From Phycisphaeraceae bacterium (GTDB lineage Bacteria > Planctomycetota > Phycisphaerae > Phycisphaerales > SM1A02), in assembly GCA_015709595.1 (NCBI GenBank), contig CP054178.1, forward strand, positions 2,919,205 to 2,983,204: a DNA stretch of 64,000 bases, in the 5' to 3' direction. Positions 39,860-41,591 of the stretch are shown piece after piece (within the stretch, counting starts at the first letter, position 1; the number at the start of each line of letters is the position of its first letter). Under the pieces are notes generated by a model. It was not told the DNA's origin and ran no database searches. It saw only the letters and a list, made by a program, of their open reading frames with translations. The position numbers and the translations under genes are program-made.

Positions 39860-40991
39860 CTATGCCTTGACCGTCTGTCGGCTCGCTTCCTTCTCCGCGC
39901 GGCGGCGTTTCAGCTCCGCGTCGATGAATCCTTCGATCTCGCCGTCCAGCACCGATTGGGGGTTGCCGACTTCGTAGCCGGTGCGGTGATCCTTCACGCG
40001 GTTGTCGTAGATGACGTAGGAGCGGATCTGTGTCCCCCAGCCGCGATCCACCTTGCCGCCAGTGGCTTCGTTCAGTTCCGCGGCCCGCTTCTCCTCCTCG
40101 ATCTGTTCAAGCTTGGCCTGCAGAATCGAGAGGGCCTGCTTCTTGTTCTGCGGCTGATCGCGGTACGTGGACGAAACGATCATGATGCCCGTGGGCTTGT
40201 GGACCACGCGGATCGCCGACGCCACCTTGTTGACGTTCTGCCCGCCCGGTCCGCTGGCGCGGACGAAGGGCGTGATCTCCACCTCGTTCATGTCGATCTC
40301 GACGTTCATCTCGTCGAACTCGGGCGTCACATCCACCGTGGCGAAACTGGTCTGCCGCTTGCCCTGAGCGTTGAACGGACTGACGCGGGCCAGCCGGTGC
40401 GTGCCGCGCTCGCAGGACATGTAGCCGAAGGCGTAAGGCCCCTTGACGAGGTACGTCACCTCGCTGATGCCCGTCTCGGTTCCGGGGTTGCGGTTGATCT
40501 CCTCGACCTTCCAGCCCATCTTGGCCCAGTAGTACAGGTACATGCGATCGAGCATCGCAGCCCAGTCATCCGCCTCGGTGCCGCCGTCGCCCGCCTGGAT
40601 GGAGACGAAGCAGTTGCGATGGTCGTGCTTGCCCGAGAGCAGCGACTGCAACTCGACTTTCTCCATCTGGGTCTGGAGCTGGAAAAGGGTCTCATCCGCC
40701 TCGGCGAGCAGGTCGGCATCCTCGGCCTCGCGGGCCAGTTCGTAGCCGACCTTGACATCGTCGAACTGGCGGATGATCTCCTCCAGCCCCTCGGTCTGGG
40801 CCTTCAGCGTCTTGAACTCGGCGATGACCTTCTGCGCCTGGACGGGGTTGTTCCAGAAGTCGGCGCCGTTCATGCGCTCCTGGAGCGCGGCCCGATCCTT
40901 CAGTCGTTGATCGTAGTTAAAGAGAGTCGCGGATGGTCAAGATCCGCGCCTCGAGATCCTCGATGGCCGCCTTGTGGTTCTCGTAATGCAT
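39860..40991 (-). CDS. prfB: Peptide chain release factor 2, expressed by +1 frameshifting
   Basis: RF2 releases peptides at UGA and UAA. The gene is in two frames. It starts at ATG 40991 (MHYENHKAAIEDLEARILTIRDSL, 24 codons), reaches an in-frame TAA at 40919-40917, and continues in the +1 frame from 40918 as NYDQRLKDRAALQERMNGADFW, for a 376-residue product. The junction L-(N)YD matches the E. coli junction L-DYD exactly. Later motifs: the tripeptide-type anticodon SPF (ARVSPFNAQGKRQTS) and the catalytic GGQ (ASGPGGQNVNK). Reading only from ATG 40873 would lose 39 residues. A TACCGT box 5 nt before ATG 40991 supports the upstream start. Confidence 0.93.
40916..40922 (-). promoter_or_regulatory. 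prfB: Programmed +1 frameshift site CTT-TAA-C
   Basis: On the minus strand CTT (slippery Leu codon), TAA and C form the RF2 autoregulatory site. The usual site is CTT-TGA-C preceded by an AGGGGG-like element three bases upstream. Here the stop is TAA, and the preceding bases (CCGCGACTCT) show no such element. Confidence 0.85.
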
Positions 40992-40996
40992 GGCAC

Positions 40997-41002
40997 ACGG
41001 TA
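40997..41002 (-). promoter_or_regulatory. -10-like box TACCGT, 5 nt before prfB
   Basis: On the minus strand TACCGT is followed by five bases and ATG 40991. It lies in the 24-nt gap after the flavin reductase gene. Confidence 0.4.
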
Positions 41003-41015
41003 GCGCGGGGGCGTG

Positions 41016-41591
41016 CTAAAGCAACTTGGCCGTCACCTGCGCCAACCTGGCGCCCACCGCCTCCAGCCCCTGCCGAAGCCGGTCATCCGTCATGCGGCCC
41101 TCGGCGTCGAAGACCTTGTCCACGCCTGACGCGGCCCGCTGGTCAGGGATCACCAGCACGCCGATGTTGCCGAGAATCTCGCGCACGTGGCGCAGCACGC
41201 GCAGCCCGCCCAACGCGCCGCCCGACGCCGCCACCAGACCGGCGGTGCGGCCATGCCAGTACTGCAGGTTCCCCCGGCCGTCCGGGCCGCGGGTGGTCCA
41301 GTCGATGGTGTTCTTGAGCAGGGGGGTGATGGAGCTGTTGTACTCCGGGCAGGCGATCAAGTAGCCGTGATGCGTCGCCATCACCTCCTGCAATCGCTTC
41401 GTGCCCTCCGGCAGCCGGTGAATCGCCTCCCAGTCGGCGTCGTAGAGGGGCATGGGGTAGTCGGCCAGATTGATGACCATCACTTCCGCCCCAGCGGCGC
41501 GCGCACCACTTGCGGCGATCTCCAGCACCTTGCGGTTCCATGAGTCCTTGCGGACGCTTCCGGCGAAGGCGAGAATCCGAGGGGCGGGCAT
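41016..41591 (-). CDS. NADPH-dependent FMN reductase-like flavoprotein
   Basis: This 191-residue flavodoxin-fold protein has ILAFAGSVRKDSWNRKVL (FMN phosphate loop), ACPEYNSSITPLLKNTIDW (the family hallmark PEYN-x-S) and GLVAASGGALGGLRVL. Members (SsuE/azoreductase/ChrR type) reduce FMN, quinones or metals with NAD(P)H. AGAGGA lies 8 nt before ATG 41591, which is preferred over the longer frame from 41627. It is followed by prfB on the same strand. The true substrate is not evident. Confidence 0.9.
   Translation of the reverse strand: MPAPRILAFAGSVRKDSWNRKVLEIAASGARAAGAEVMVINLADYPMPLYDADWEAIHRLPEGTKRLQEVMATHHGYLIACPEYNSSITPLLKNTIDWTTRGPDGRGNLQYWHGRTAGLVAASGGALGGLRVLRHVREILGNIGVLVIPDQRAASGVDKVFDAEGRMTDDRLRQGLEAVGARLAQVTAKLL

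Follow-up and report, generated by a model that had tools for sequence, protein, structure and literature searches.

The prfB gene analysed here, which lies on the minus strand of a 64,000-nucleotide stretch of a Phycisphaeraceae genome (the window), probably carries a functional site for autoregulatory +1 frameshifting, with an mRNA hairpin taking the place of the internal Shine-Dalgarno (SD) stimulator. From the comparison of prfB leaders across the class, we put the probability of this reading at roughly 0.8.

The prfB leader and shift site

The leader reading frame (40920-40991, minus strand; MHYENHKAAIEDLEARILTIRDSL) starts at ATG 40991-40989, and its last codons, GAC TCT CTT, are followed by TAA (40919-40917) and C (40916). 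CTT TAA C (40916-40922, minus strand) is the shift site and comprises the slippery CTTT, the stop UAA and the +4 C; it is preceded by the spacer or E-site codon TCT (40923-40925). The RF2 body lies in the +1 frame (39860-40918, minus strand), open from AAC (40918) to 39860; its translation matches NCBIfam TIGR00020 (prfB) with 399 bits against a cutoff of 370 and contains the SPF codon-recognition motif of RF2. The preliminary description of this DNA had read a 24-codon leader ending in CTT TAA C and the rest of RF2 in the +1 frame, and both readings hold on the minus strand. Of 119 distinct prfB genes of the same family, 114 carry CTTTRAC at the identical position, as do 233 gene copies across the class, far beyond chance, and the leader counted from its ATG has exactly 24 codons in 113 of the 114 family members and in all members of the related families f2, f3 and f5. 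A 453-aa open reading frame antisense to prfB (39956-41317, plus strand), very likely spurious, can win simple longest-ORF gene calling in this region.

Genome-wide searches covered the single 3.84-Mb contig of this genome. The RF1 gene is encoded elsewhere, with PAT at the place matching SPF; its best NCBIfam match is RF1, just under the cutoff. The reader of CUU, tRNA-Leu(GAG), was found by an Rfam tRNA search with ARAGORN, a guessed tRNA-Leu sequence pattern having given no match. The same genome also encodes a 187-aa GGQ protein (L003, 1213-1776, minus strand), release-factor-related and PrfH/ArfB-like but below cutoffs, which is a possible ribosome-rescue factor.

Nearly all bacteria use the same prfB frameshift mechanism according to a survey of >12,000 genomes (PMC12421855). 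The present locus resembles the E. coli cassette in its short leader, its CTTT, its in-frame stop followed by C, its RF2 frame at +1 and the presence of tRNA-Leu(GAG), but differs in having a hairpin where E. coli has the SD-like AGGGGG. The use of UAA instead of UGA is no bar to membership of the cassette, since TAA is an accepted minority form (1.4%); the site was classed as a variant because the SD-like element three nucleotides 5' of CTT is absent and a hairpin occupies its place.

RF2 could also be made mainly by internal initiation at an ATG (40871-40873, minus strand) preceded by AGGAG. Both elements are present, but the ATG occurs in 5/5 family genes without the shift site and in 110/114 with it (missing in 4), and conservation with other RF2 proteins extends to the residues preceding it. 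The ATG is thus constrained by the protein, being equally conserved with and without the shift site, and internal initiation is very improbable as the main source of RF2.

A hairpin at the place of the Shine-Dalgarno element

No SD-like element was detected 3-15 nt 5' of CTT, where the predicted duplex energy with the anti-SD is about 0 kcal/mol, compared to -10.2 kcal/mol in E. coli. The preliminary description was thus right that an AGGGGG-like element is missing, though it omitted the conserved hairpin at 40928-40948. The 16S rRNA tail of this genome has an intact anti-SD (GGATCACCTCCTTTCT), so the missing stimulator is a property of the mRNA and not of the ribosome. Predicted anti-SD pairing is likewise about 0 kcal/mol in families f1-f5 and f8, which have the CGCG stem, whereas the CCCGG-type families retain weak pairing (-4.0) with CGGGAC kept, and the other planctomycete classes sampled have a median of -5.3 and no such stem. 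A likely history, judged from these families, is that an SD-like GGGAC was overlapped by a growing stem and that a double change to CGCG then removed the SD while keeping the stem.

The hairpin (40928-40948, minus strand) consists of a 7-bp stem (CGCGGAT and ATCCGCG) and a 7-nt loop (CTTGACC), and is the proposed +1 stimulator. Its predicted free energy is -14.5 kcal/mol (z -3.7), including an optional extension in the minimum-free-energy structure in which GAG (40950-40952, minus strand) pairs with CTC (40924-40926) across a G-A mismatch. In the family 97.3% of the cells of the extended stem are paired; families of the CCCGG type have not retained the extension. The hairpin occurs at nearly all of the 232 native sites of the class, where the stem base lies 5 nt before the slippery CTT, with constant spacing and without indel, so that a stable hairpin ends next to the E site, as expected of an upstream-hairpin stimulator. 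RNAalifold recovered the stem unaided, and a side-by-side listing of the sites indicated DNA conservation 5' of the shift far above the needs of the leader peptide. Stems are weak or broken in some members of family f7 and in one of f21. No Rfam family matched at gathering score in the window. Comparing the free energy of the region was not discriminating, since the E. coli stretch used for comparison also folds well by chance (-13.0), and position-specific pair counts were therefore used.

The loop contains a stop in the RF2 (+1) frame, TGA in this gene (40937-40939, minus strand), and such a stop is present in 146 of 184 members of the order, most other leader positions being without one. 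The Leu codon of the loop is only TTG or TTA in the family, both rare in the gene body. Possibly the loop stop is a safeguard against ribosomes that have entered the +1 frame beforehand.

A GAGG just 5' of the stem could alternatively pair with the anti-SD across the hairpin, the 21 nt of which would be looped out, bringing the duplex near the shift site. Such a bridged SD would agree with the retention of GAG followed by G in most CGCG-type sites, with GAG as codon 14 in 105 of 113 family leaders and with the intact anti-SD. However, in the predicted stem this GAG is paired with CTC, its position is occupied by CGGG, TCGG, ACGG or CAGG in other members, and GAGG is mostly absent in the CCCGG-type families, making this alternative improbable.

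Covariation and synonymous constraint

The hairpin is supported by pairing between synonymous codon positions, of which 455 of 466 stem cells are paired compared to 376 by shuffling. Pair 8-26 lies between third codon positions, one of an Ala and one of an Arg codon, and is paired in 228 of 233 copies, 165 being expected from column composition (GC 147, GU 40, CG 31, AU 6, UA 3, UG 1, unpaired 5); the codon pairs across the stem include GCG/CGC, GCG/CGT, GCA/CGT and GCC/CGG. Pair 11-23, in which the third positions are those of an Arg and an Ile codon, is paired in 227 copies versus 211 expected, and the summed count of the two pairs was reached by 0 of 10,000 shuffles. Among 55 representatives, 32 cells had changed on both sides with pairing kept, compared to 10.7 after shuffling, and the covariation score was 0.293, compared to 0.126 for shuffled and at most 0.096 for slid structures. 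Two core C-G/G-C pairs are fixed by Arg codons, never vary and are uninformative, which leaves pairs 8-26 and 11-23 as the main source of covariation support. GC-type and CG-type stems both occur within families f10 and f17, indicating that the stem type switched more than once.

Synonymous codon choice in the leader is also extremely constrained. Across 113 genes of the family, GCG makes up 98% of the Ala15 codons (34% in the gene body), CGG 97% of Arg16 (18%), TCT 86% of Ser23 (5%) and CTT 100% of Leu24 (12%). Conserved body columns of the same amino acids never reach this uniformity.

These patterns bear on the idea that the site is an ordinary prfB frameshift site that lost its SD and was weakened, with relaxed autoregulation and a hairpin arising incidentally from the constraints on codons and peptide. 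SD-like pairing is indeed absent, and the peptide RI..IRDSL is conserved, its two Arg codons alone yielding a CG/CG core. A peptide effect nevertheless fails as the explanation because synonymous covariation cannot come from the peptide: five pair types are seen among the covarying synonymous third positions, codon choice in the 5' arm is more constrained than in any body column of the same amino acid, and the hairpin is gone in every tree member without the shift. A weakened site, which appears largely refuted already by the synonymous covariation, is thus quite improbable. Where the preliminary description had suggested a relaxed or altered autoregulatory site, "altered" stands, and "relaxed" does not, given the synonymous constraint and the covarying hairpin at the place of the SD.

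Association of the hairpin with the shift site

On a tree of 148 genes, 139 have both the shift site and the hairpin (at least 6/7 pairs), nine have neither and none has one alone; each feature changed three times, so that the co-loss is read from three tree events only. Scorable class genes without the shift have at most 5/7 pairs (mean 3.1), compared to a mean of 6.8 in genes with it.

The hairpin might instead act as an intrinsic transcription attenuator or as a protein-binding site in the leader, and together with the following CTCTCTTT / ACTCTCTTTA it does score as terminator-like in a simple scan. That tail is, however, fixed by the shift site and the UCU codon, and families with U-poor tails such as ACTGGCTTT, ACGGGCTTT or ACACGCTTT keep 6-7 of the 7 stem pairs. 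The spacing to CTT never changes and the hairpin was lost together with the shift site, leaving a role other than frameshift stimulation with a low probability.

One genome (G448) has two prfB genes and is a natural side-by-side of both stimulators. Its L318 has the hairpin and CTTTAAC, while L339 has GAGGAGGTATCTTTGAC, a canonical SD with UGA, an SD energy of -12.4 and 3/7 stem pairs. L339 is 38% identical to the RF2 of the window. The presence of both types in one genome suggests that a second RF2 was gained horizontally.

In a covariance-model search of the whole genome of the window, the prfB hairpin was the best match at 60.5 bits, and no similar element elsewhere exceeded 19.4 bits, the score of the next match. 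Matches occurred in 60 of 294 genomes of the phylum, and the strong, placeable ones were all at prfB. Among those examined outside the class, stems were mostly partial, and full or nearly full hairpins in L359 (f81) and L367 (f102) hint at an older origin or transfer. Two records titled Limnohabitans sp. (L105) and Candidatus Kuenenia stuttgartiensis (L147) carry a Phycisphaerales-type prfB and are probably mislabelled or mixed bins.

UAA at the shift site

A survey of 12,753 genomes in 2025 reported TAA in 1.4% and UGA in 98.6% of prfB sites and judged TAA not to be broadly fixed in clades (PMC12421855). In contrast, CTTTAAC accounts for 94 of the 232 native shift sites that we surveyed in Phycisphaerae. 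The family of the window has 38 UAA and 76 UGA sites in a first count and 39 and 75 after regrouping; among related families, UAA occurs in 26/34 sites of f2, 5/8 of f3, 0/5 of f5, 2/18 of f10 and 19/22 of f4 (3 UGA), with the foreign-looking L339 set aside from the last. On the tree of 148 RF2 bodies, stop identity changed 15 times compared to 41.5 times with shuffled labels, indicating that the stop codon is inherited in clades with repeated switches. The comparison of CTT-TAA-C and CTT-TGA-C in the prfB 5' ends of relatives, which the preliminary description had proposed, thus found UAA to be a repeated natural state, common across several families. A base-call error was rejected, as the identical codon is present in many independent genomes.

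Nearly all UAA sites lack the weak SD-like GGGA, UAA occurring in 93 of 198 sites without this element versus 1 of 34 with it, though these are related genomes and the counts are not independent. UAA is read by both RF1 and RF2. Genes called in the window end in TGA (41), TAG (4) or TAA (1), a rough tally from crude calls of which at least one is an antisense open reading frame. As about nine in ten of these genes end in TGA, RF2 is probably the dominant factor and, though RF1 is present, probably also the main reader of UAA, in which case the UAA site would still report mainly on RF2. It may also act as a sensor of total release capacity.

Proposed mechanism and significance

Considering these results, we propose the following model for the prfB shift site. 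The hairpin would be unwound by the ribosome during translation of the leader. When the ribosome stops, with UCU, CUU and UAA occupying the E, P and A sites respectively, the hairpin could refold in the region where the mRNA exits, the stem base being 5 nt 5' of CUU and near the position of the E. coli SD/anti-SD duplex. If release factor is scarce, termination would be slow and the strain of refolding might pull the mRNA by one base, so that tRNA-Leu(GAG) would slip from CUU to UUU, allowing RF2 to be made; with plentiful release factor, UAA would be read and only the leader peptide produced. UAA would keep the feedback as long as RF2 is its main reader, a plausible situation in genomes in which UGA far outnumbers the other stops. 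Frameshifting at this site, its dependence on the stem, for which the covariation is indirect support, and its response to RF1 and RF2 are inferred, as are the stimulation of the shift by the hairpin, the manner in which it would act and what UAA would sense.

In E. coli extract, +1 shifting at CUUUGA reached about 60% of the SD-stimulated level with a synthetic 12-bp hairpin placed next to the E site; the effect was seen only without RF2 and was lowered when the hairpin was destabilised (PMC6321510). The prfB hairpin resembles these artificial H1 hairpins in being a stable hairpin next to the E site of the same shift site and a proposed mimic of the internal SD duplex, but it is natural, conserved and located in prfB itself, and its stem of 7 bp, up to 10 with the mismatch, is shorter than the 12-bp synthetic stem. 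A conserved stem-loop upstream of a shift site is also known from a viral frameshift system, in which it is thought to slow the ribosome or insulate the site, whereas the present case is a bacterial +1 shift at a stop codon. No report of such a hairpin in prfB was found in the literature searched, which was mostly open-access. Tentatively, and with less confidence than for the site itself, the whole class may have swapped an rRNA-pairing stimulator for an intramolecular mRNA hairpin. This would be the first natural case known in bacteria of a +1 stop-codon frameshift driven by a hairpin; UAA would sense the combined activity of RF1 and RF2 in whole families, and the loop stop would act as a fail-safe.

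Described in 2025 as almost universal in every element, the prfB cassette is a textbook case from which the Phycisphaerae appear to depart. A class in which the stimulator would have been replaced by a different physical device and the stop freed from UGA makes two questions testable, namely whether +1 shifting can be driven by any duplex located where the mRNA exits and whether RF2 feedback requires UGA. The hairpin element may also offer a natural part for the study of mRNA tension on the ribosome.
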